Assembly (NCBI GenBank): GCA_949127975.1
Contig: CASBRB010000072.1
Span: 1 to 43,968 of the forward strand
Origin: Oscillatoriales cyanobacterium PMM_0019
GTDB lineage: Bacteria; Cyanobacteriota; Cyanobacteriia; Cyanobacteriales; CASBRB01
Direction: 5' to 3'
DNA length: 43,968 nucleotides
The first letter of the stretch is position 1; each line of letters opens with the position of its first letter. The notes beneath the pieces are model-generated. The model was given only the letters and a program-made list of their open reading frames with translations. It was not told the DNA's origin and searched no databases. Shown one piece after another: positions 223 to 27,234 of the stretch. Both the position numbers and the translations under genes were made by a program.

Positions 223-3200
223 TTAGCATATAGATCGCTCTCTGGGATTTAAGCAAAATTTCAGCTTCTCAGTGAGAATCTGGACATGGGGCTTTTTCAG
301 CATAGTTAGGTGATTACCAGGAATTAAATTAATTTCTACCCCACCTAGAGCTAGTTTATCCCAGCCCCGTGTAGGATCTTGATGGGTTGCGATCGCGGAG
401 CTAGTTTTAAACAGGGTAAGTCGGTTTGGGTAAATCTGTGGTACATAGCTGCGAACTGCTTTGGAGTTAGCTTGGTAAACACGCCACATTGGTGTAACTG
501 TTAGCTCATTTAAAATCCGCAGTTTTGCTTCTTGAGGCAGAAAATTATCTATTTTCGTCTGTCCGGAGATGGAGTTCCAGAGAAAATGGGTGCCGAGCGA
601 TCGCATCATATTCCTCAACTTAAGATCGATCGTCGCTAATTCTTCACTTGGGTGTCGATCGCTCACTGTCAGCAGATAAACATAATCAAATAGAAAAGAC
701 CATATATATCGTACTCCTGTAGTGGCAATAAACTTCAAACCATCCCAAAAAGAAGTCTGTTGAGCCGAAACTGGCGCATAAGTATCGAATATTGCCAGTA
801 GCGCCACTTCATGCCCCATTTGATGTAACTGTTGAGCCATTTCAAAAGCTACCAAACCTCCAAAAGACCAGCCGCCAATAAAATAAGGCCCTTCTGGCTG
901 CACCAACCTGAGCGCCTGAATATAGTAAGCAGCCATATCCTCGATCCGGTCTAACGGGGCTTCTTTACCGTCTAAACCCAGAGGTTGCAGCCCATAAAAC
1001 GGTTGGTCTGTTCCTAAATTATACGCCAATTCGTAATAAGGAAAAACTACACCAAAAATAGGATGAATGCAGAAAAAAGGAGGCTTTTTACCAGCAGGTT
1101 GAATTGCTACTAAGGGAGACCAAGGTAGAGCCTCTGTATCTGAAGATAGTTGTTTGGCTAACCCTTCTACCGTTGGATTTAAAAATAAAGTAGAGAGAGG
1201 TAACTGTTTTTGAAACTGCTTGTCTATTCGATCGATCAAGCGTACAGCCAGCAGAGAATTTCCTCCTAAGTCAAAAAAGTTGTCTTGAATCCCCACACGA
1301 TTGAGGTTAAGGACTTGAGCCCAAATTTCGGCAAGTGCAGACTCGGTTGGAGTACGAGGAGCAATATCAGGGCCACTATTCAAATTATCGGGTGCTGGAA
1401 GGGCACGGCGATTTACTTTCCCATTGGGGGTTAGCGGCAGAGCATCTAGCACTACAAAAGCTGACGGTATCGTGTACTCAGGCAGCTTTTCCTTCAAGAA
1501 AGAGCGCAACTGACTCGATTTAGCATTAGACACTACATAAGCTATCAAACGCTGGTTGCTATATACATCTTCTGTAGCAATTACCACTGCTTCTGTTACT
1601 GCTGGATGCTGCCTCAGCACTGCCTCAATTTCGCCTAACTCGATGCGGAAGCCGCGAATCTTTACTTGCTCGTCGATGCGCCCTAAAAATTCGATATTGC
1701 CATCAGATCGGTAACGCCCTAAGTCACCAGTGCGATAAAGGCGAGCGCCCTGTTGATGATTAAAAGGATGAGGTATAAACCTTTCAGCAGTAGTTGCGGG
1801 GCGGTTGAGGTAGCCCCGCGCCAGCCCCACACCGCCGAGGTACAACTCGCCCACAACACCAATGGGTACGGGTTGTAACTGGGCGTCTAATATATAAATT
1901 TCCGTGTTAGCAATTGGGCGACCGATGGGTATAATAGATTTAGCATTGTTAACCTGGTTAATTTCTGCTACAGTTGACCAAACAGTTGCTTCCGTTAACC
2001 CGTAAGCGTTGAAAAATCGGCGTCCACCAGCCCAGCGTTTGACAATATCTTGAGAACAGGGTTCTCCCGCACATATAATAGTCTGCAATGCGGGAAGTTC
2101 TGCGGTAGGTAAAATTGCCAGTACAGCAGGGGGGAGTGTAACGTTAGTAATGCCATTGTCCCGCAACAGTTGGATTAAAGCTTTTCCTGGCATAAGGGAT
2201 TCATTTTTGGCTACGTATAGTGTAGCTCCTGTTGCCAGTGCCATGACAATCTCAAAGATTGAGGCATCAAAACTCAAGGAAGCGAATTGCAGCACTCGGT
2301 TACTTGGCTGTAGGTTGAAAGTTTTCCTCTGGGCTTGCACCAAGTTGCACAGCCCTCGATGCGATATCGCAACACCTTTGGGTTTGCCTGTCGAGCCAGA
2401 TGTATATATAATATAAGCTAGGTTGTCAGGTAGTACGCTGCTATTGGGATTTTCTTGACTTTGCTGGGCATTCCCTGGCAGCTCGTTGTCAAAGAAAGCA
2501 CCATTTTTAACTCTGAGGATAACAAAATGCCTGTTGTCGTTCCCGAATTGCTCAACAAATTGCTGCTGAGTTAGCAATATAGATACCTGAGCATCCTCTA
2601 ACATGAAACTAAGACGCTCTTGAGGATAGGTGGGATCTAAGGGCAGATAAGCTCCACCTGCTTTGAGGATGCCCAACACTCCCACAATCATTTCTACAGA
2701 ACGTTCTACGCAGATACCAACTATACTTTCTGGCACTACCCCCAGTTGCTGTAGATAACCTGCTAGTTGGTTAGCCCTGATGTTCAATTCGCGGTAGGTT
2801 AACCGCTGAGTTTCAAAAACAACTGCTATGGCATCAGGCGAGTTTTTTACCTGAGTTTCAAATAGGTAGTGAATGCAATTCCCCAAGTTTTCCTGCTTGG
2901 TGTCATTCCAATCATATAATAATTGCTGCCGCTCTGGTATGGTTAAAATAGGTAATTCACATAAGGGTTGCTCTGGATTAGCCACTATGCCTTCTAGTAG
3001 GGTTTGAAAATGTCCTACCATCCGGGTAATTGTGGTATGGTGGAATAGATCGGTGCTGTAGATTACTTGTCCTTTAAGAGTTTCCCCTTCTGACCAAAAA
3101 TGGAACTCTAAATCTAACTTGGCACTGCCGTTGTCAACCTCTAAGAGACTTAAATTTAAGTCGGGTAACTCTAAAGCTGATATTGGAGTGTTTTGCAGAG

Positions 3201-4389
3201 AAAAACTAACTTGAAATAAGGGATTGCGGCTTAAGTCGCGCTCTGGATGCAGATCTTCTACTAATTTCTCAAAAGGTAAATCTTGGTGGGTATAAGCTCC
3301 TAAAACTACCTCTCGCACTCTGACTAAAAGTTCGCGAAACGTCGGGTTTCCTGATAAATCGCTGCGCAATACTAAGGTGTTGACAAAAAAGCCAATTAGC
3401 CCTTCAATCTCAAGGCGGTTACGGTTGGCGATCGGGACTCCGCAAACAATGTCGTCTTGTCCTGTATAATGGTATAATAAAGTTTGAAATCCTGTAAGCA
3501 GAGTGGTAAACAAGGTCACTCCCACTTGCCTGCTAAGCTCCTCTAGCCCTTGTTTTAGGGAGTGGGGTAGCTCTAGCAATTGTTTAGCTCCTTGGTAGGT
3601 GGGAACTGTAGGTCTAGGTTTGTCGGTAGGTAGATTTAGCACTGGCAGGTTGCCAAGTTGTTGCCGCCAATAAGCTAGCTGAGTTGACAGCACTTCTCCC
3701 TGTAACCATTGGCGCTGCCATTCGGTGAAGTCGGCGTATTGCAAGGGTAATTCTGGAAGGGGCGATAACTCTCCCTTGACAAAAGCTGTATATAATCCCC
3801 CCAGTTCCCGAACTAGCACCCCAATAGACCAACCATCAGCAATAATATGATGGAGATTCAGCAACAAGACATATTCTGCTGCATCGAGTTGTAGGATCGT
3901 CACTCTCAGTAATGGTGCCGTGGTGAGGGAGAAGGGGCGTTGGAATTCTTCTGTTATCAGCCTGCTGAGTTGTTTTTCCCTTTCAGTCGCCACCAGATGC
4001 TGTAGGTCGATCGCTGGTAGAGCTATAGTTAAGTGGGGTGCGATCGCTTGGATGAGGTCTTCACCCATAATAAAGCTAGTACGCAATATTTCATGACGAC
4101 GCACTATTTCGTTAAACGTCTGCTCTAGTGCAGCTAAGTTAAGCTTCCCTGTCAGACGAAGGGCACACCCGACATTGTAGAAAGGATTGCCCGGTGCCAA
4201 CTGGTGGAGAAACCACAACCGCTGCTGGGCAAACGATGCCGGAAAGACAAAAACCTCTGTTTCTTCATCACAACTAGCATTCATAGAAGGGGACGTTGAC
4301 GGGTGTAGGTTAAAGTCTACCGGAAAATGGGGGAGTTTCTCGTTCCCAGGCAGAGCCTGGGAACGCCGCTTTTGAGGCTCTGCCTCCAC
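223..4389 (-). CDS. NRPS terminal module, C-A-T-TE
   Basis: This 1388-residue peptide synthetase adds one amino acid and releases the product. Domains in order are condensation (about 47-480, HHIIADG at 180-186), adenylation (about 510-1000, YTSGSTGKPKG at 662-672), carrier (GGNS, pantetheine Ser1045) and type I thioesterase (about 1100-1380, GWSFGG with Ser1175, likely Asp1202 and His1360). Residues aligned by eye to the GrsA pocket read D708 A709 F712 T751 I772 A774 A795 V803 W804 K991. The DAxTIAAV pattern resembles Phe/Tyr-type codes, so an aromatic substrate is inferred with modest confidence. The 5' end is uncertain. The GTG at 4389 gives an N-terminus translated from a palindromic repeat, and the ATG at 4284 gives MNASCDEE, just before the conserved FAQQRLWF motif, and is more likely the ancestral start. 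No Shine-Dalgarno is seen at either. Its likely upstream partners lie 12 kb away. Confidence 0.93.
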   Translation of the reverse strand: MEAEPQKRRSQALPGNEKLPHFPVDFNLHPSTSPSMNASCDEETEVFVFPASFAQQRLWFLHQLAPGNPFYNVGCALRLTGKLNLAALEQTFNEIVRRHEILRTSFIMGEDLIQAIAPHLTIALPAIDLQHLVATEREKQLSRLITEEFQRPFSLTTAPLLRVTILQLDAAEYVLLLNLHHIIADGWSIGVLVRELGGLYTAFVKGELSPLPELPLQYADFTEWQRQWLQGEVLSTQLAYWRQQLGNLPVLNLPTDKPRPTVPTYQGAKQLLELPHSLKQGLEELSRQVGVTLFTTLLTGFQTLLYHYTGQDDIVCGVPIANRNRLEIEGLIGFFVNTLVLRSDLSGNPTFRELLVRVREVVLGAYTHQDLPFEKLVEDLHPERDLSRNPLFQVSFSLQNTPISALELPDLNLSLLEVDNGSAKLDLEFHFWSEGETLKGQVIYSTDLFHHTTITRMVGHFQTLLEGIVANPEQPLCELPILTIPERQQLLYDWNDTKQENLGNCIHYLFETQVKNSPDAIAVVFETQRLTYRELNIRANQLAGYLQQLGVVPESIVGICVERSVEMIVGVLGILKAGGAYLPLDPTYPQERLSFMLEDAQVSILLTQQQFVEQFGNDNRHFVILRVKNGAFFDNELPGNAQQSQENPNSSVLPDNLAYIIYTSGSTGKPKGVAISHRGLCNLVQAQRKTFNLQPSNRVLQFASLSFDASIFEIVMALATGATLYVAKNESLMPGKALIQLLRDNGITNVTLPPAVLAILPTAELPALQTIICAGEPCSQDIVKRWAGGRRFFNAYGLTEATVWSTVAEINQVNNAKSIIPIGRPIANTEIYILDAQLQPVPIGVVGELYLGGVGLARGYLNRPATTAERFIPHPFNHQQGARLYRTGDLGRYRSDGNIEFLGRIDEQVKIRGFRIELGEIEAVLRQHPAVTEAVVIATEDVYSNQRLIAYVVSNAKSSQLRSFLKEKLPEYTIPSAFVVLDALPLTPNGKVNRRALPAPDNLNSGPDIAPRTPTESALAEIWAQVLNLNRVGIQDNFFDLGGNSLLAVRLIDRIDKQFQKQLPLSTLFLNPTVEGLAKQLSSDTEALPWSPLVAIQPAGKKPPFFCIHPIFGVVFPYYELAYNLGTDQPFYGLQPLGLDGKEAPLDRIEDMAAYYIQALRLVQPEGPYFIGGWSFGGLVAFEMAQQLHQMGHEVALLAIFDTYAPVSAQQTSFWDGLKFIATTGVRYIWSFLFDYVYLLTVSDRHPSEELATIDLKLRNMMRSLGTHFLWNSISGQTKIDNFLPQEAKLRILNELTVTPMWRVYQANSKAVRSYVPQIYPNRLTLFKTSSAIATHQDPTRGWDKLALGGVEINLIPGNHLTMLKKPHVQILTEKLKFCLNPRERSIC
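4341..4365. repeat. Palindromic repeat, CGTTCCCAGG family
   Basis: This is a perfect inverted repeat, CGTTCCCAGG / CCTGGGAACG, with the 5-base loop CAGAG. Other copies lie at 4660-4688, 4834-4854, 21533-21554 and (half only) 43874-43894. If the GTG start at 4389 is used, this copy encodes the SQALPGNE part of the NRPS N-terminus. Confidence 0.85.
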
Positions 4390-4394
4390 CTAAA

Positions 4395-4485
4395 CAGGAC
4401 TTACGCATGCCTCTATATATAGCGGGTTCGTAGGGGCAATCCCCAAGTGGGTTGCCCCTATATATGCCAGTGTGCATAAGTCCTG
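4395..4485. mobile_element. Full-length 91-bp palindromic MITE-like element
   Basis: The element begins CAGGACTTACGCA and ends TGCATAAGTCCTG, so its termini are inverted repeats with one mismatch. The interior contains a GTAGGGGCAA...TTGCCCCTA stem. It starts 6 bases upstream of the GTG codon of the NRPS gene. It encodes no protein of its own, so movement would need a transposase supplied elsewhere. No clear target duplication is visible, because a second partial copy abuts the right end. Confidence 0.85.
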
Positions 4486-4540
4486 ATATAGCGGTTCGTA
4501 GGGGCAATCCCCAAGTGGGTTGCCCTTACATATGCCCAGT
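4486..4540. repeat. Partial copy of the MITE body
   Basis: This stretch repeats the interior of the element (ATATAGCGGTTCGTAGGGGC through CATATGCCCAGT) directly after the first copy and lacks both terminal repeats. The following bases (CTGCCTCCATCTAAA) resemble those preceding the first copy, so the array looks like a local tandem duplication. Confidence 0.7.
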
Positions 4541-4555
4541 CTGCCTCCATCTAAA

Positions 4556-4647
4556 CAGGACTTACGCACTGCCTATATATATAGCGGTTCGTAGGGGCAA
4601 TCCCCAAGTGGGTTGCCCTTACATATGCCCAGTGTGCGTAAGTCCTG
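4556..4647. mobile_element. Full-length MITE-like element, second copy
   Basis: This copy has the terminal repeats CAGGACTTACGCAC and GTGCGTAAGTCCTG and a body nearly identical to the copy at 4395-4485, with a few substitutions such as CCCTTACATATGCCC. It lies between the NRPS gene and the upstream kinase gene, in a 526-base repeat-filled gap (4390-4915) with no gene that I can support. Confidence 0.85.
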
Positions 4648-16336: not shown

Positions 16337-19300
16337 TCATGGTTTATTTTTGAGAGAAGATAACTTCATGCGACGATTTTCTCTCTCGACTGGTACTAAA
16401 GCTGGGGCTTGACTTTTAGTATCGCTTTCTTGCAAACCCTCTATTACTTTAGATAGTTGCCCGATCGCCGGAGCCTCAAATACACTCCGCAAAGGTAACT
16501 CTACCCCGAAAGCCTCCCGCACTCTAGATACTAACTGAGTCGCCAGTAAGGAATGACCCCCTAATTCAAAGAAATTATCATCAATACCTACTCGCTTCAC
16601 TCCCAATACCTCAGCCCAAATTTTTACTAGCACTTCCTCAATAGCATTGCGAGGCGCAACATCAACTCCTGCCCATTCCGATTTAATCGAGTCCGGTTTA
16701 GGTAAGGCGCGACGATCGATCTTGCCATTAGGCGTGAGCGGCAATTGTCCCATCACTACAAAAGCTGAAGGCACCATATAATCAGGCAACTTTTCTGTCA
16801 AATAAGCCTGAATCTGAGGCACTAATTTTCGGGCTGTTTCACCTTGCAAAGGATTATTAGCATAAGTTCGCCAAGGATGCAGACTATTACTATCTTCCAC
16901 TAGGTCAGGACTTACGCACACTGGCATATATAGGGGCAACCACGGGGGGTTTGCCCCTACCAACCCGCTATGGTTTTCGCCTTGCGATCGCGCCAACACG
17001 ACATCATAGCGTCCTTCAATGCCAGAATCTGACCAACTAATGTTAAGACTATAACCTAGCTCATCACCCAGTGCATGCCAATCCTCTGGGTTTACTCCCA
17101 AAGAAGGCATTTCTTCTAGGGCTTGACGAATCTGACCTGCTGTTTTATATTTACAATATCCTGACAACCATGCTGCTGTTTTTACTGCTGCCATTACCCG
17201 CGCATTAGGTATATTAACGAGCGCTAACATTTCTGGTGAGGTTTCGGTTAATAGCTGACGCACTGTCGATACTGTCAAATTATCTTTATCCCAGTTCAGC
17301 CCCTGAAACTCCCGTCCACGGGGAGAAGTAATTTCAGTGCCAATATGCAAAATCGCATTGTAACGAAACTGAGTTAACTCATTTTGATGACTACCCCGCA
17401 TTAGTTCAAGTCTTACCTGGCTTATCTGCGGAAATTGTTGCTGTAATGCACTAAAAAAATCTGGAGCGATGACTAACTCAGTTTCTTGGAACATTTGCAT
17501 TTGTACCCTTTGCTGCAACTGTTCGCGAGTCAGGGAAGGTTCTGCTTGATGCAGTTGCACTGAAGCATGGAAAGCTTCTAGTAAAGACAAATTACGTAGA
17601 TCTCCGATGAAAATAAAGCCACCGGGCGCTAACGCTTTTACCGCCCCCTCGATTACTTCCATCAGATACTCAATACTGGGAAAATATTGTACCACAGAGT
17701 TGAGGATAACGGCATCAAAGGCTTGTGTCGGTATGCCTTCAAAGTCGGTAGCCATTTTTGGCAGCAGAGTTACCTGGGGTAGATCTTGGAATGCTTGCTG
17801 CTGTCTAATATAGTTTAGCGATCGCACAGAAAAATCTGTTCCCCAGTATTCCTCGCACCTGCACGCAATCCGAAACAGCAACAAACCCGTACCACACCCT
17901 ATTTCTAACACTCGCTTAGGTTTCTTTTCTAAAATCTGTGCTACTTGGTTATTCACCCATTCCCGTACCTGCTCTGCTGGGATAGGCTGATTAGTGTAAG
18001 AACTGTTCCACCCTACAATATTAAATGTGGGATCTGAATCGGCAGGTGGTTGGCTGTAAGTGTCGTTGTAGAGCATCTGCCATTGGGATACCTGTTCTTC
18101 GTGCAATTGCGTCTGGTAACTGGTACTGCTGGCTTCACCATTTAACACCATATAAGCTACCAAACGGTCTTCCCCAACTACATCTTCTCGATTCATCACT
18201 ACTGTTTGTAGCACTGCCGGATGTTGACTCAATACCGCTTCAATTTCTCCTAACTCCATGCGAAAGCCGCGAATTTTCACCTGATAATCTAGGCGTCCTA
18301 GAAATTCGATGTTGCCGTCAGCTCGGTAACGAACTAAATCACCAGTTTTATAAAGTCGCCTTCCTTGTAGTGTAATAAACCTTTCAGCGGTTAAGTCAGG
18401 ACGGTTCAGGTAGCCCCGCGCCAATCCATCACCACCGATGTATAATTCTCCGGGAATGCCAACGGGCACGGGTTGTAAATGGGCATCCAACACGTAAACT
18501 TTGGTGTTAGCAATCGGAGTACCAATTGTAGGAGCTACATCAGTTTGTTTCCGGGCAGTAATAGTACCGGAAGTTGTCACAACAGTATTTTCAGTGGGGC
18601 CGTAATTATTCACCACTATAAAGGGATGGGAAGCTAAAGGATACTGATGGAGTTTGTCTCCACCTGTGAGTAATATCCGTAAAGCTGCATCCTGGGGCCA
18701 ATCTAATGTTAAAATTTTCTCGGCTAGGGGTGTGGGCAAAAAGCTAATCGTAATTCCCTGTACTTTCAACCAGTCTAGAAGTTTTACAGGTGAAATGCGG
18801 GTTTCATCATCTATAAAGTAAATGCTAGCTCCAGCGGTAAGATAGGGCCAAATTTCCCATCCACAGGCGTCAAATGCTACTCCGGCAATTTGAGTTGTTC
18901 GATCGCTCGGCGAAACTGCAAACGCTTGTTGATGCCAAAATATCAAATTTAACAATCCGCCATGTTCAATTTCTACTCCCTTGGGTTTACCAGTCGAGCC
19001 TGAGGTGTAGATAACATAAACGAGATTGTCTGTTAGTACTGAGTTATTTAAATTATCTTCACTTTCTCTGGCAATATTTTCCCAATCGCTATCTAGGCAG
19101 ATTACTTGCGTTCCCTGCTGCCCAATCCGATCGATCCATTGTTGTTTTGTCAACAAAACTGGCACTTGAGCCTCTGCCAGCATCAAACTTAAACGTTCTT
19201 GGGGATAGCTAGGATCTAAAGGCAGATATGCTCCACCAGCCTTGAGGATGCCCAACATACCTACTACCATATCTAGCGATCGCTCAACACAAATTCCTAC

Positions 19301-21076
19301 TAAAACTTCCGCACCCACGCCCAGTTTTTGTAGATAATGCGCTAGCTGGTTGCTGCGGATGTTTAATTCCCGGTAGGTAAGTTGTTTATCTCCACTTATC
19401 AGCGCTGGAGCATCAGGAGTTTCCTCTACTCGTTTTTCAAATAACTCATGGATGCACTTATCTTTGGGATAATCTGCCTCGGTGTGGTTCCAGTCTACTA
19501 ACAATTGTGTTAACTCTGCTTCGCTTAACAAAGGTAACTCTGAGATTTCTTCATCTGGATTAGCGACAATACTTTCTAGGAGGGTTTGAAAATGTTCTAT
19601 CAGCCTGGTGATAGTGGAGCGATCGAATAAATCTGTGCTATACACTACCAAACCGCAGATATTATCTGAAGCTTCACTCCAGAGATGATTAGAAGATGGC
19701 TCCCACAAGTGAAACTCTAAATCGAATCGCGTGGTACTGGTATCAAATTGCTGCGGTTTTAGTGTTAGCCCTGGTAACTCTAGCACCTCTATTGGTGCAT
19801 TCTGGAGCGCAAACACTACCTGAAACAGAGGATTTTGACTTAAGTTGCGCTCTGGATGTAATTCTTCTACCAATTTCTCAAAGGGTAAGTCTTGGTGACT
19901 GTATGCTCCTAGAGCCACCTCTTTCACCCGATTTAACAGTGTTCTAAAAGTTGGGTTGCCTGATAAGTCGGTACGTAACACTAGACTATTGACAAAAAAA
20001 CCAATTAATGGTTCTATTTCTTTACGGTTGCGATTAGCGATCGGTACTCCGCAGGCGATGTCCTCTTGCCCCGTGTAGCGGTGGAGCAAGGTTTGGAATG
20101 CTGCCAGCAGGGTAATGAACAAAGTCACCCCTGACTGCTGACTAAATTTAATTAGTGCTTCGCTCAGGGCTTTAGGTAATCTCAGAGATTCGGTAGCACC
20201 TCGGAAGGTTTGGATTGCTGGGCGAGGAAAATCTGTAGGTAGATTGAGCATAGAAATGTCATCTAATTGCTCCTGCCAGTAAGCTAGTTGTGTCGCGAGT
20301 ACATCTCCTTGCAGCCATTGGCGCTGCCAGTGGGCAAAGTCTGCATATTGCATAGGTAATTCTGGTAGGGGGGAAGACTGCCCCAGAGAGAAGGCTGTGT
20401 ATAGCGAGCCTAGTTCTCGAATCAGCACCCCTAGAGACCAACCATCAGAGACAATATGATGTAAATTCAGTAACAGGACATGTTCTGCTTCATCTAGCTG
20501 CAATAACGTTACTCGCAGCAAGATATCTTTTGTCAAATCGAATGCACGCTGAAACTCTGCTGTAGCGACGCGCCGAGCTTCTGACTCACGCTCTGGTTTT
20601 TGGCGCAGATCTATTATAGGTAGGGATATACTTAAGGAGGGAGCGACCTTTTGAACTGGTTGCCCTGCCACCATGACTAAATTAGTACGTAAAGCTTCGT
20701 GACGCCGTACTATTTCGTTAACAGCCTGTTGCAGTGCAGGTAAATTAATTTCGCCACACAGACGCACTGCTGCCGAGACATTATAAAACGAATTGCCGGG
20801 TACTAACTGGTCTAAAAACCATAATCGCTGCTGAGCAAAGGATAGGGGTAGGAGCCCAGAGCGTGGAATCGTTACCAAGTCAGGAGTTGCAGGGCTGTTA
20901 GTTACATTTCCGGCTTCGCGCAAAAAGGAAATAATCTCTGCCTTGCGCTCGCCCAGTTGGTTTTTTAATTCAGGTGTCAAAGTGCCGTCAGGTGCATTAC
21001 AACGTAACCGCGCACCATCGACAAAAACCTGAATATCCAAGCTGCGAAGGTAAGATAAAAACTCTACTATTTTCAA
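16337..21076 (-). CDS. NRPS module with TubC docking domain, C-A-NMT-T
   Basis: This is a 1579-residue synthetase. Domains: an N-terminal TubC-type docking domain (about 1-55), condensation (76-510, HHIVSDG near 206), adenylation (545-975), an N-methyltransferase inserted before the last A motifs (about 995-1300, SAM site VLEIGCGTG 1056-1064), the A-domain tail (1400-1470) and a carrier (GGHS, Ser1509). The pocket residues D736 A737 W740 F779 L803 G805 N824 V832 V833 K1452 spell DAWFLGNVVK, a classical Leu code, so N-methyl-Leu is the likely residue. The TTG start (21076) overlaps the preceding gene's TGA, so translation is probably coupled. A MITE fragment encodes about residues 1370-1393. 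After the carrier the protein ends ALVPVERENRRMKLSSLKNKP, which looks like the linker into a next C domain cut off just before FAQQRLWF, so a downstream module may have been lost. Confidence 0.93.
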   Translation of the reverse strand: MKIVEFLSYLRSLDIQVFVDGARLRCNAPDGTLTPELKNQLGERKAEIISFLREAGNVTNSPATPDLVTIPRSGLLPLSFAQQRLWFLDQLVPGNSFYNVSAAVRLCGEINLPALQQAVNEIVRRHEALRTNLVMVAGQPVQKVAPSLSISLPIIDLRQKPERESEARRVATAEFQRAFDLTKDILLRVTLLQLDEAEHVLLLNLHHIVSDGWSLGVLIRELGSLYTAFSLGQSSPLPELPMQYADFAHWQRQWLQGDVLATQLAYWQEQLDDISMLNLPTDFPRPAIQTFRGATESLRLPKALSEALIKFSQQSGVTLFITLLAAFQTLLHRYTGQEDIACGVPIANRNRKEIEPLIGFFVNSLVLRTDLSGNPTFRTLLNRVKEVALGAYSHQDLPFEKLVEELHPERNLSQNPLFQVVFALQNAPIEVLELPGLTLKPQQFDTSTTRFDLEFHLWEPSSNHLWSEASDNICGLVVYSTDLFDRSTITRLIEHFQTLLESIVANPDEEISELPLLSEAELTQLLVDWNHTEADYPKDKCIHELFEKRVEETPDAPALISGDKQLTYRELNIRSNQLAHYLQKLGVGAEVLVGICVERSLDMVVGMLGILKAGGAYLPLDPSYPQERLSLMLAEAQVPVLLTKQQWIDRIGQQGTQVICLDSDWENIARESEDNLNNSVLTDNLVYVIYTSGSTGKPKGVEIEHGGLLNLIFWHQQAFAVSPSDRTTQIAGVAFDACGWEIWPYLTAGASIYFIDDETRISPVKLLDWLKVQGITISFLPTPLAEKILTLDWPQDAALRILLTGGDKLHQYPLASHPFIVVNNYGPTENTVVTTSGTITARKQTDVAPTIGTPIANTKVYVLDAHLQPVPVGIPGELYIGGDGLARGYLNRPDLTAERFITLQGRRLYKTGDLVRYRADGNIEFLGRLDYQVKIRGFRMELGEIEAVLSQHPAVLQTVVMNREDVVGEDRLVAYMVLNGEASSTSYQTQLHEEQVSQWQMLYNDTYSQPPADSDPTFNIVGWNSSYTNQPIPAEQVREWVNNQVAQILEKKPKRVLEIGCGTGLLLFRIACRCEEYWGTDFSVRSLNYIRQQQAFQDLPQVTLLPKMATDFEGIPTQAFDAVILNSVVQYFPSIEYLMEVIEGAVKALAPGGFIFIGDLRNLSLLEAFHASVQLHQAEPSLTREQLQQRVQMQMFQETELVIAPDFFSALQQQFPQISQVRLELMRGSHQNELTQFRYNAILHIGTEITSPRGREFQGLNWDKDNLTVSTVRQLLTETSPEMLALVNIPNARVMAAVKTAAWLSGYCKYKTAGQIRQALEEMPSLGVNPEDWHALGDELGYSLNISWSDSGIEGRYDVVLARSQGENHSGLVGANPPWLPLYMPVCVSPDLVEDSNSLHPWRTYANNPLQGETARKLVPQIQAYLTEKLPDYMVPSAFVVMGQLPLTPNGKIDRRALPKPDSIKSEWAGVDVAPRNAIEEVLVKIWAEVLGVKRVGIDDNFFELGGHSLLATQLVSRVREAFGVELPLRSVFEAPAIGQLSKVIEGLQESDTKSQAPALVPVERENRRMKLSSLKNKP
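16906..16971. mobile_element. Truncated MITE copy inside the NRPS coding sequence
   Basis: CAGGACTTACGCACACTGGC through CCAACCCGCTAT matches the first about 66 of 91 bases of the element. The right terminal repeat is missing. The host frame stays open: the minus-strand translation GLVGANPPWLPLYMPVCVSP is element-derived and lies between the methyltransferase and the C-terminal part of the A domain, a linker that probably tolerates insertion. Confidence 0.85.
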
Positions 21077-24000
21077 AATTCTGCCTCTTCTCGTTGAGCG
21101 ATCGTATATTTGGTATTATCTGCACCTTTTACTGCCCAAGAAACTGTTTCTATATACTCAGCCAGACTAGCTACAGTCGGTGACTCAAACAATTTCCGTA
21201 AGGGCAACTCCACTTGAAAGGCATCCCGGATGCGAGAATTGAGCTGAGTTGCTAATAGAGAATGCCCACCCACCTCAAAAAAATTGTCGTGGACACTCAC
21301 CTGATGCCGCCCTAAAACCTCAGTCCAAATTTTCACTAACACTTCCTCAATGGGAGTACTAGGTGCTACATAATCTTCTCCCATGTCGGTGTTAGTTGTA
21401 TCTATCTTAGGTAGGGCACGGCGATCGATTTTGCCATTTGGTGTCAGGGGTAGAGCTTTCATCACCACATAAGCTGCGGGTATGGCGTATTCTGGTAACT
21501 TTTGTTTCAGGTATTGGCGCAGCTCGCGCTCCATCCCAGGCTCTGCTTGGGAATGATTAGGAACTACATAAGCTATCAACTGGTTGTTACCAGTCGCATC
21601 TTCTCTAGTAATTACCACAGTGTCTCGAACTGCTGGATGCTCAAGCAGCACCGCTTCAATCTCTCCCAATTCAATGCGGAAACCACGAATTTTTACTTGT
21701 TCATCAATTCTACCTAAAAACTGGATATTGCCATCTGGGAGATAGCGGGCTAAATCACCTGTTTTATAAAGGCGCGAACCCGGTTCCTGACTAAAAGGAT
21801 TAGGCATAAACCGCTCAGCCGTTAACTCAGGGCGGTTAAGATAGCCCCGCGCTAATCCATTACCACTAATATACAACTCGCCAGTAACACCGATCGGCAC
21901 GGGCTGTAGTTGTCCATCTAGTAAATAAATCTGCGTGTTTTGAATCGGGCGACCAATAGGTATAATTAAAGATGTACCTTTTAAGCTTTCCTTTTCTACT
22001 CTGTACCAAGAAGTAAATGTTGTATATTCGCATGGACCATAAAAATTCAGCAATTCTTGTAGCGGATTTGACTCGATGAGTTTTGCCACCACTTTAACAT
22101 CAGCAGTTTCGCCGCCAAATAATAAGTATCGCAGCGAGTCGAAAGCTTCGGGAGCAATTTTTGCTACCTGTTGAAATAAAGCGGTGATTAAAAACAGGAC
22201 GCTGATACCAGATTTTCGGATTTGTGAGGCTAAATCCTGGGGGGAAAGAATCACATCTCTGCTAATGACGACAAGTTGGCTGCCGTTAAGCATAGCACTC
22301 CAAATCTCGAAGGTTGCTGCATCGAAAGAAGTGTTGGAGATTTGGGCGATTTTATCGCTAGAGTCTAGTTGGATATAATTAGTATTGCAGACTAAATGAG
22401 TTACAGCTTGGTGAGGAATCGCAACTCCCTTGGGCTTTCCCGTAGAACCAGAGGTGTAGATGACGTAGGCGAGGTTGTCACCTGTCAAGTCGTTAGTGGG
22501 ATTTTTCTCGCTTTCTTGGGCAATTTCTTCCCAGTGGGTATCCAAGCAAATTACTCGTGCTTGGTGTAATCCTCGCGAGCTTAACTGCTGCTGAGTTAAT
22601 AATACTGATACTTTAGCATCCTCCAGCATAAATTTTATGCGATCGGGGGGATAACTGGGGTCTAAGGGCAGATATGCTCCTCCTGCTTTGAGAATACCCA
22701 GCATTCCCACGATCGTTTCTACAGAACGTTCCATGCAAATGCCGACTAAAACTTCCGCACTCACTCCGATTTTATGTAGATAATGCGCTAGTTGGTTGGC
22801 ACGGTTATTCAGTTCTCGGTAGGTTAACTGCTGATTTTCAAAACTAACTGCTATGGCATCGGGGTATTTTTCTACCTGGGATTCAAATAAGTGGTGAATG
22901 CAACAGGACTTACGCACTGCCTCTGTATATAGCGGGTTCGTAGGGGCAATCCCCCTGTGGTTGCCCCTATATATGCCAGTGTGCGTAAGTCCTGTGCAAT
23001 TTCCCACGTTTTCCTGCTGGGTGTCATTCCAATCGTGTAATAACTGCTGTCGCTCTGAATCGGTTAAAATAGGCAATTGACTGAGGCGCTGTTCGGGATT
23101 AGCAACAATGCCTTCGAGCAGGGTATAAAAATGTTTCAGCATCCGCCTAATGGTAGACTCATCAAATAGATCGGTGCTATATACCATTACAGCTCTAATC
23201 CCTTGGGAATGTTCCCACCCCTCCCCTAGCAGACTCCTGAAGTTTTCCGAACATTCCCACAGATGAAACTCCAAATCAAACCGCGTTGTTTGAGAGTCAA
23301 AATCTACAGCACTCAGGGCTAACCCTGACATCTCTAAGGCTGACATCGGCGCATTTTGCAGATTAAACACTACTTGAAATAGGGGATGGCTGTTGAGGTT
23401 ACGTTCTGGCAAACCTTCCACCAGCTTTTCAAAGGGCAAATCTTGGTGGCTGTAAGCTTCTAGTGTTAACTCTCTTACCCTGCCGAGTAGCTCTTGAAAT
23501 GTCGGGTTGCCGGATAAGTCGGTGCGTAACACCAGGTTATTGACAAAAAAACCAATTAACCCTTCAATTTCTTTACGGTTACGGTTGGCAATTGGCGAAC
23601 CGATGGCAATATCTTCCTGGTGGGTGTAGCGGTAAAGCAACGTCTTAAACGCTGCTAGGAGAGTCATAAATAAGGTGACTCCGTTTGCTTTTGAAAGTGC
23701 TTTTAGCTCCTCAGTAAGCTTCTGGGGTAGCTCTAGAGTTTGAGTTGCTCCCCGATAGCTGGAAACCGCTGGTTTTTGTCTATCTGTGGGTAGATTCAAG
23801 ACAGAGATGTTGTGAAGCTGTTGTCGCCAGTAAGCTAATTGGGTTTCTAGCACTTCCCCTTGCAACCACTCGCGCTGCCAGTGGGCAAAGTCGGCATACT
23901 GGAGGGGTAGCTCTGGCAGAGGAGAAGGCTGCCCGCAAGATTTGGCTGTGTAGAGTGTACCGAGTTCCTGAATTAGCACCCCCATAGACCAATCATCTGA

Positions 24001-24495
24001 TACAATATGGTGCATGCAAAGTAGCAGTAGATATTCTGTGTCGTCGAGTTGAAAGAGCTTCAATCGCAGCAACGGTGCTTGGGTTAAATGGAAAGGACGC
24101 TTAAACTCTGCTGTAGCTAGTCGTTTGGCTTCTGTCTCTCTAGAAGCTGTGGGGAGCGATCGCAGGTCTACTACTGGCAGGGGTATACTGAGGCTGGGAG
24201 CGATTACCTGAACGATTTGCCCTTCTACCATCTCAAAAGTGGTACGCAGAGCTTCATGACGTAGCACAATCTTGTTGATTGTCTGCTCTAGGGCAGTTAA
24301 GTTGAGAAAACCTACCAAGCGAACTAAATAAGGTATATTGTAAAAGCAATTTCCTGGTATCAACTGATCGAAGAACCACAGTCGCTGCTGGGCAAAAGAG
24401 GCGGGAAAGACGAAGACGTCTTCTTCTTGAGGAAGATTGAATTTTTCTCGCTCAGCCATAAGGAGGAAGAATGAAGTATTAAAAATAAGATTCAC
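21073..24495 (-). CDS. NRPS module, C-A-T, carrying an in-frame MITE
   Basis: This is a 1140-residue synthetase with condensation (about 28-480), adenylation (533-1030, YTSGSTGKPKG about 680-690) and carrier domains (GGHS, Ser1079). The condensation motif reads HHIVSDD (162-168), with Asp replacing the usual final Gly. Pocket residues D725 A726 F729 F768 L792 G794 F818 T826 F827 K1022 resemble Ile/Val-type codes, so a branched aliphatic substrate is inferred. Residues 501-532 are encoded by a complete MITE plus its target duplication: the homologous NRPS at 223-4389 reads GNCIHYLFE where this one reads GNC, then 32 extra residues, then IHHLFE. A palindromic repeat encodes SQAEPGME near 982-989. 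The start could be the codon at 24495 or the ATG at 24459 (MAEREKFN), which lies nearer the conserved FAQQRLWF. As the first gene it begins with a C domain, so an upstream donor or starter acyl group is expected. None is in the window. Confidence 0.93.
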   Translation of the reverse strand: MNLIFNTSFFLLMAEREKFNLPQEEDVFVFPASFAQQRLWFFDQLIPGNCFYNIPYLVRLVGFLNLTALEQTINKIVLRHEALRTTFEMVEGQIVQVIAPSLSIPLPVVDLRSLPTASRETEAKRLATAEFKRPFHLTQAPLLRLKLFQLDDTEYLLLLCMHHIVSDDWSMGVLIQELGTLYTAKSCGQPSPLPELPLQYADFAHWQREWLQGEVLETQLAYWRQQLHNISVLNLPTDRQKPAVSSYRGATQTLELPQKLTEELKALSKANGVTLFMTLLAAFKTLLYRYTHQEDIAIGSPIANRNRKEIEGLIGFFVNNLVLRTDLSGNPTFQELLGRVRELTLEAYSHQDLPFEKLVEGLPERNLNSHPLFQVVFNLQNAPMSALEMSGLALSAVDFDSQTTRFDLEFHLWECSENFRSLLGEGWEHSQGIRAVMVYSTDLFDESTIRRMLKHFYTLLEGIVANPEQRLSQLPILTDSERQQLLHDWNDTQQENVGNCTGLTHTGIYRGNHRGIAPTNPLYTEAVRKSCCIHHLFESQVEKYPDAIAVSFENQQLTYRELNNRANQLAHYLHKIGVSAEVLVGICMERSVETIVGMLGILKAGGAYLPLDPSYPPDRIKFMLEDAKVSVLLTQQQLSSRGLHQARVICLDTHWEEIAQESEKNPTNDLTGDNLAYVIYTSGSTGKPKGVAIPHQAVTHLVCNTNYIQLDSSDKIAQISNTSFDAATFEIWSAMLNGSQLVVISRDVILSPQDLASQIRKSGISVLFLITALFQQVAKIAPEAFDSLRYLLFGGETADVKVVAKLIESNPLQELLNFYGPCEYTTFTSWYRVEKESLKGTSLIIPIGRPIQNTQIYLLDGQLQPVPIGVTGELYISGNGLARGYLNRPELTAERFMPNPFSQEPGSRLYKTGDLARYLPDGNIQFLGRIDEQVKIRGFRIELGEIEAVLLEHPAVRDTVVITREDATGNNQLIAYVVPNHSQAEPGMERELRQYLKQKLPEYAIPAAYVVMKALPLTPNGKIDRRALPKIDTTNTDMGEDYVAPSTPIEEVLVKIWTEVLGRHQVSVHDNFFEVGGHSLLATQLNSRIRDAFQVELPLRKLFESPTVASLAEYIETVSWAVKGADNTKYTIAQREEAEF
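21533..21554. repeat. Palindromic repeat, CGTTCCCAGG family, inside NRPS coding sequence
   Basis: ATCCCAGGCTCTGCTTGGGAAT is a slightly degraded copy of the palindrome with the CTCTG-type loop. It is translated in the NRPS as part of SQAEPGME, in the variable A-domain loop before the ELRQYLKQKLPEY segment. Confidence 0.7.
22904..22994. mobile_element. Complete MITE inside NRPS gene with 5-bp target duplication
   Basis: The element has perfect 14-base inverted ends (CAGGACTTACGCAC / GTGCGTAAGTCCTG) and spans 91 bases. TGCAA flanks it on both sides (22899-22903 and 22995-22999). The uninterrupted homologous site in the paralogous NRPS (about 2871-2880, GTGAATGCAATT) has a single TGCAA. Element plus duplication adds 96 bases, a multiple of three, and the inserted minus-strand frame has no stop, so the synthetase stays open. 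The site is the linker between the C and A domains. Confidence 0.93.
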
Positions 24496-26963: not shown

Positions 26964-27234
26964 CAGGACTTACGTAGAATGGGCATATGTAGGGGCAACA
27001 ACAGGGGGATTGCCCCTACCAACCGCTATGTACAGGACTTACGCACACTGGCATATATAGGGGCAACCACAGGGGGATTGCCCCTACGAACCCGCTATAT
27101 ATAGGGGCAACCACAGGGGATTGCCCCTACGAACCCGCTATATATAGGGGCACACACCGGAGATTGCCCCTACGAACCCGCTATATATAGAGGCAGTGCG
27201 TAAGTCCTGATGTAGTGTAGTTGCGTAAGTCCTG
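26964..27234. mobile_element. Compound MITE cluster with a tandemly expanded core
   Basis: A truncated copy at 26964-27032 is followed by an expanded copy at 27033-27209 with both terminal repeats. Its core unit (TATAGGGGCAACCACAGG to ACGAACCCGCTATA, about 44-45 bases) is repeated three times in tandem. An extra right end (TTGCGTAAGTCCTG) closes at 27234. The repetition arises between TATATA tracts at unit edges, consistent with slippage or unequal exchange. The 462-base gap 26850-27311 holds nothing else that I can support. Confidence 0.85.

Follow-up and report, generated by a model that had tools for sequence, protein, structure and literature searches.

The literature already describes MITEs of cyanobacteria, MITE insertions within NRPS clusters and palindromic elements read in frame in Rickettsia (PMC10969869). 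The Rickettsia elements are about 150 bp long, and nearly half of the first set lay in genes, where they encode a conserved peptide (PMC10969869). MITE insertions are also reported to inactivate the mcy (microcystin) cluster in Anabaena (PMC10969869). The present analysis concerned a window, i.e., the whole stretch of DNA analysed, of 43,968 nucleotides from Oscillatoriales cyanobacterium PMM_0019 (contig CASBRB010000072.1), in which a 91-bp MITE lies within an NRPS gene. Very probably, this is a MITE of IS701 type (ISCysp21/NF049921) that is mobilised in trans by an IS701 transposase and that recently entered the NRPS gene in frame and was tolerated there, copies that land in genes being otherwise selected out or avoided.

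The complete element occupies positions 22904-22994 (no strand assigned; 94.8 bits in nhmmer) and has IS701-type ends that form perfect 14-bp inverted repeats, CAGGACTTACGCAC on the left (22904-22917, + strand) and GTGCGTAAGTCCTG on the right (22981-22994, - strand), each an exact match. A TGCAA target duplication flanks it at 22899-22903 and at 22995-22999 (neither with a strand), in keeping with the 5-bp rule observed genome-wide. Exact coordinates and sequence therefore bore out the original prediction of a complete MITE with perfect 14-bp ends and TGCAA on both sides. The A/T at its borders would allow this copy, taken alone, to be read also as having 15-bp ends and a 3-bp duplication, a reading ruled out by the genome-wide peak at 5 bp. 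The end sequence was matched 18 times within the window versus 2.4 matches expected by chance. The shortness of the element, its inverted ends and its want of transposase coding capacity are those of a MITE, as are a high copy number (at least 91 exact-ended copies) with a fixed 5-bp duplication and the evidence of an empty site in a paralogue and in homologues.

The empty site was evident from NRPS gene 3 of the same window (223-4389, - strand; C-A-PCP-TE, 1388 aa), a paralogue in which a single TGCAA stands at 2874-2878 (no strand assigned). This gene reads GTGAATGCAATT where the filled gene, NRPS gene 1, reads GTGAATGCAA-CAGG..CCTG-TGCAATT, and the two BLAST pieces of the filled versus the empty gene overlap by exactly 2874-2878, so that the alignment confirmed the internal control proposed at the outset. 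Empty sites sought in NRPS homologues at loci from other genomes were likewise found, the element being absent from 27 of 27 linkers. The insertion into NRPS gene 1 appears to be recent, as suggested by the 98-99% identity of the MITE to its nearest copies in the host genome and by its perfect duplication.

Hundreds of relatives of the 91-bp element were noted in the host genome, the assembly of which is fragmented (5.74 Mb in 512 contigs). At least 91 copies in this assembly carried an exact match to the inner end at each side, versus none for a reversed-pattern control, and a profile search of a 1.6-Mb sample (28% of the host genome) gave 398 non-redundant matches, 114 of them full length. 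The statistics of copy position given below come from this sample, for which contigs holding copies were favoured, with no bias toward copies inside or outside genes. Flanking repeats of 5 bp were perfect at 42 of 93 candidate copies, compared with 4, 4 and 2 copies for repeats of 3, 4 and 6 bp; copies elsewhere in the genome thus do carry the 5-bp duplication. The core palindrome of the MITE is widespread in cyanobacteria, and the MITE had no match in phage or plasmid sequence collections. Copies or fragments of the MITE also cluster between genes of the window at 4395-4647 and 26964-27234, where they are apparently nested or tandem. At three further loci (L128:12977-13044, L119:8588-8670 and L175:5835-5925), MITEs supply the last residues and the stop of predicted genes, one of which encodes an ABC transporter ATPase. 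Near-identical copies (93-99%) were also noted in a genome of another family (G327, locus L142), reflecting either contamination or recent transfer.

MITEs with the same ends and unrelated interiors were found in Okeania, Trichodesmium, Microseira, Argonema, Nostoc and others. The 5-bp duplication was perfect in 78 of 110 same-ended MITEs of other genomes, and their lengths peaked at 91 bp. Across these genomes (loci L208-L317 and L318-L320), lengths lay near 91 bp and less often near 103 and 111 bp; clustering near 91 bp despite unrelated interiors may reflect a constraint on the spacing of the ends. Same-ended MITEs occurred in a few other phyla as well, singly in Legionella brunensis, Litorilinea, a Daviesbacteria MAG and a gammaproteobacterial MAG. 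The same 13-bp ends outside cyanobacteria were located at L300:6583-6658, L226:2673-2758, L305:3630-3715, L219:6251-6343 and L269:3438-3519, with a perfect 5-bp duplication at three of these five loci.

A likely source of the transposase was indicated by solo ends in the host, three of which, on clustering of such ends by their inner sequence, shared the longer sequence TAGGACTTACGCATTGACAAAT. This clustering led to IS701-family elements of the ISCysp21 type, which are about 1.14 kb long (1.09-1.16 kb), end in (T/C)AGGACTTACGCATTGACA and make 5-bp duplications. Their transposases, of about 340 residues, match NF049921 (transpos_IS701_2) far above the cut-off, with E values down to 1e-119, and have close relatives annotated as ISCysp21, ISCysp20 and ISPna6. 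Complete IS701 elements carry the ends TAGGACTTACGCATTGACA and identical 5-bp flanking repeats; exact 5-bp duplications together with TAGGACTTACGCATTG.. ends were present at five copies, four on plasmids and one in a genome. These repeats were tcatt in Anabaena cylindrica, aatca in Legionella israelensis, aactt at ISPna6 of Polaromonas, taatt in Nostoc (C057) and gttca in G001, so that these five IS701 copies and the MITEs have a 5-bp duplication in common. The outer 12-13 bp, AGGACTTACGCA, are also identical between IS701-type elements and MITE ends, and some IS701 copies start with CAGG, as the MITE does. By protein, ISAba11 of Acinetobacter is a relative (45.6% identity); it was set aside as its ends differed in the one copy read.

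The IS701 transposase itself gave no tblastn match in the 512 contigs of the host assembly, in which eight IS701-type end sequences are left, and a search of the host, relatives and viral contigs for paired ends spaced as in an IS yielded no IS. ORFs adjoining the solo ends, considered as transposase candidates, proved to be ordinary genes. A repeated IS701 element could have been lost from so fragmented an assembly. An alternative is mobilisation of the MITE by a transposase of a different family that also makes 5-bp duplications, a reading with which the missing transposase and a MITE interior unrelated to IS701 would agree. However, the extended end AGGACTTACGCATTGACAA was present in 40 of 390 cyanobacterial genomes, where, if complete, it usually flanks or points into IS701-type elements with the same 5-bp repeat, and a family-free search of IS-size TIR pairs gave no other transposase; a different mobiliser is accordingly improbable. 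In the same 40 genomes the extended end often stood about 100 bp from a contig end, as would be expected if a multi-copy IS had collapsed in assembly. MITE interiors differ from IS701 and from one another, counter to derivation by internal deletion, and as only the ends are common to both, the MITE is best described as using IS701 ends rather than as an internally deleted IS701. Under the favoured reading, an IS701 transposase acting in trans would recognise the outermost 12-13 bp at each end and cut the insertion site with a 5-bp stagger.

One such copy would then have recently entered NRPS gene 1 (21073-24495, - strand; C-A-PCP, 1140 aa), which is open through the element. The element plus its duplication amounts to 96 bp, or 32 extra residues (501-532), among which is a predicted tryptic peptide, GIAPTNPLYTEAVR. 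Translation would run through the element and lengthen the C-A linker by these residues, since 91 + 5 bp makes a whole number of codons and no stop occurs in the frame entered. Pfam placed the Condensation domain at residues 30-486 and AMP-binding at 537-886, followed by AMP-binding_C and PP-binding, and the insert accordingly sits between the end of the first (486) and the start of the second (537). Similarly, in PDB alignments the C domain ends at about residue 496 and the A domain starts at about 531-533, again with the insert between them. The predicted gain of 32 residues in the C-A linker with neither frame break nor stop was upheld by the ORF and by both sets of boundaries. In an AlphaFold model of a linker fragment (mean 70), confidence was about 33-37 over most residues of the insert versus about 90 or more just downstream; this modest model supports only a lack of any confidently predicted fold in the insert. 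Lying as it does in an unstructured stretch that joins two folded domains, the insert would be expected to be tolerated by the synthetase.

The C-A linker contacts both domains in solved NRPS modules. An insert of 32 residues there, together with a strong hairpin gained by the mRNA (-44 kcal/mol, z -6.6), might instead inactivate or impair the synthetase, making gene 1 a recent pseudogene that merely contains no stop. This outcome is unlikely in view of the following. All three NRPS genes of the window are open with core motifs present, including in the gene sequence such motifs as YTSGSTGKPKG and GGHSLLAT, the neighbouring NRPS gene 2 also holds a copy and is still open, and similar linkers elsewhere (L059 and L069) hold 24-25 extra residues. 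Measured from the LPLL motif, the linker is usually 27-29 residues long in the 27 homologues compared with 60 in NRPS gene 1, the two that reach 53 residues containing a G+C-rich palindrome (L059) and a 15-bp minisatellite (L069). Another palindrome lies in the C-A linker of L055; all three are NRPSs of other cyanobacteria, and their repeats are unrelated to the MITE. From the palindromes of L055 and L059 and the minisatellite of L069, the joint seems to have accepted repeat DNA repeatedly. It is conceivable, if somewhat doubtful, that in cyanobacterial NRPSs the C-A linker, immediately ahead of the C(I/F)HxLFE motif with which the A domain starts, repeatedly keeps insertions of mobile or palindromic DNA in frame; were it so, mobile DNA would contribute to the variation in linker length among megasynthetases.

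Truncated copies read in frame were noted in three further host genes, i.e., the adjacent NRPS gene 2, a hydantoinase (in a linker) and a glycosyltransferase. The copy in NRPS gene 2 (gene at 16337-21076, - strand; TubC_N-C-A-NMT-PCP, 1579 aa), overlooked by the original prediction, spans 16906-16972 (- strand; model positions 25-91) at the junction of the methyltransferase with the rest of the A domain and reads ..GLVGANPPWLPLYMPVCVSPD.., in another frame and orientation than that of gene 1. In a hydantoinase A-B fusion (L338:600-4250; MITE piece near L133:19116-19189), the insert lies at the inter-domain joint between the end of Hydant_A_C (668) and the start of Hydantoinase_B (708), a joint of 39 residues here versus 11 in a PDB relative. 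The glycosyltransferase (L118:10605-10830) contains the MITE core as five tandem 42-bp units in frame, with GGNHGGIAPTHPLD repeats, in its N-terminal domain, while the NRPS and hydantoinase inserts are at domain joints. Three of the four in-frame host genes share one reading frame (..RGNHRGIAPTNPLY..; ..HRGIAPTNPLY..). N-terminal and C-terminal long frames found by tblastn (C145, C485, C290, C22, C127, C202, C297 and others) were rejected as upstream frames or tails rather than internal inserts.

The in-frame copies in four host genes, three of them in one frame, and a modal length of 91 + 5 bp, divisible by three, might be taken to mean that the element is specialised for coding insertion and so diversifies proteins, the original prediction having called it suited to such insertion. 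Positions of the copies contradict this. After joining of the flanks, only 3 of 114 full copies fell in an ORF of at least 120 aa, and the case was convincing only for NRPS gene 1, the other two frames being short (127 and 153 aa); in contrast, 69% of random sites and 67% of GC-matched sites in the host sample lay in ORFs. For 61 of the 114 full copies, length + 5 was a multiple of three, simply because 91 bp is the modal length, whereas only 51 of 684 combinations of copy, orientation and phase (about 7.5%) were both frame-preserving and free of stops, and every frame of the consensus copy is interrupted by a stop. Similarly, of 123 copies in other cyanobacteria 3 were clearly gene-internal, one lying in frame within a hybrid histidine kinase of Coleofasciculus (L255:2156-2247) and two that disrupt the frame, in Prochloron (L274:3410-3500) and Nostoc (L286:284-386). 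Specialisation for coding insertion was dismissed on these statistics as most improbable. Uniform insertion would be expected to give, alongside the intergenic copies, about 226 gene hits, 17 of them readable, and one was seen, from which we infer that even readable insertions are mostly eliminated, whether by selection or by the choice of target. Copies landing in genes elsewhere would thus be lost to selection or avoided by the transposase. As the element is almost always outside genes, the insertion into NRPS gene 1 is genuine but must be counted a rare accident, one probably tolerated because the C-A linker is flexible.

A literature search, weak evidence because of its incomplete coverage, found no description of the end sequence, the MITE family or its link with IS701, and none of a MITE read in frame within a bacterial NRPS. 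The locus offers a clean case, dated by structure and with an internal empty-site control, of a transposable element that has become part of a megasynthetase, and it connects a very widespread 91-bp cyanobacterial MITE family with IS701 transposases. Given how strongly such elements are excluded from genes, the cases read in frame point to joints at which a protein tolerates insertion, information of use for the choice of fusion or cut points in NRPS engineering.

Among known systems, the nearest are IS701 elements of the ISCysp21/ISCysp20/ISPna6 type (NF049921), which resemble the MITE in the outermost 12-13 bp of each end and in their 5-bp duplication; in contrast with these, the MITE is 91 bp long, has no transposase and has an unrelated palindromic interior. 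Nezha and other cyanobacterial MITEs are also non-autonomous with inverted ends (PMC10969869). The MITEs of the Anabaena mcy cluster likewise lie in a cyanobacterial NRPS/PKS cluster, but they inactivate it whereas the MITE of NRPS gene 1 keeps the frame. The likeness to Rickettsia palindromic elements is that of a short palindromic element read in frame in a protein gene (PMC10969869). Unlike those elements, a large share of which lie in genes in frame, the copies described here occur in genes far less often than expected (1 of 114 at full length) and conserve no peptide by design.
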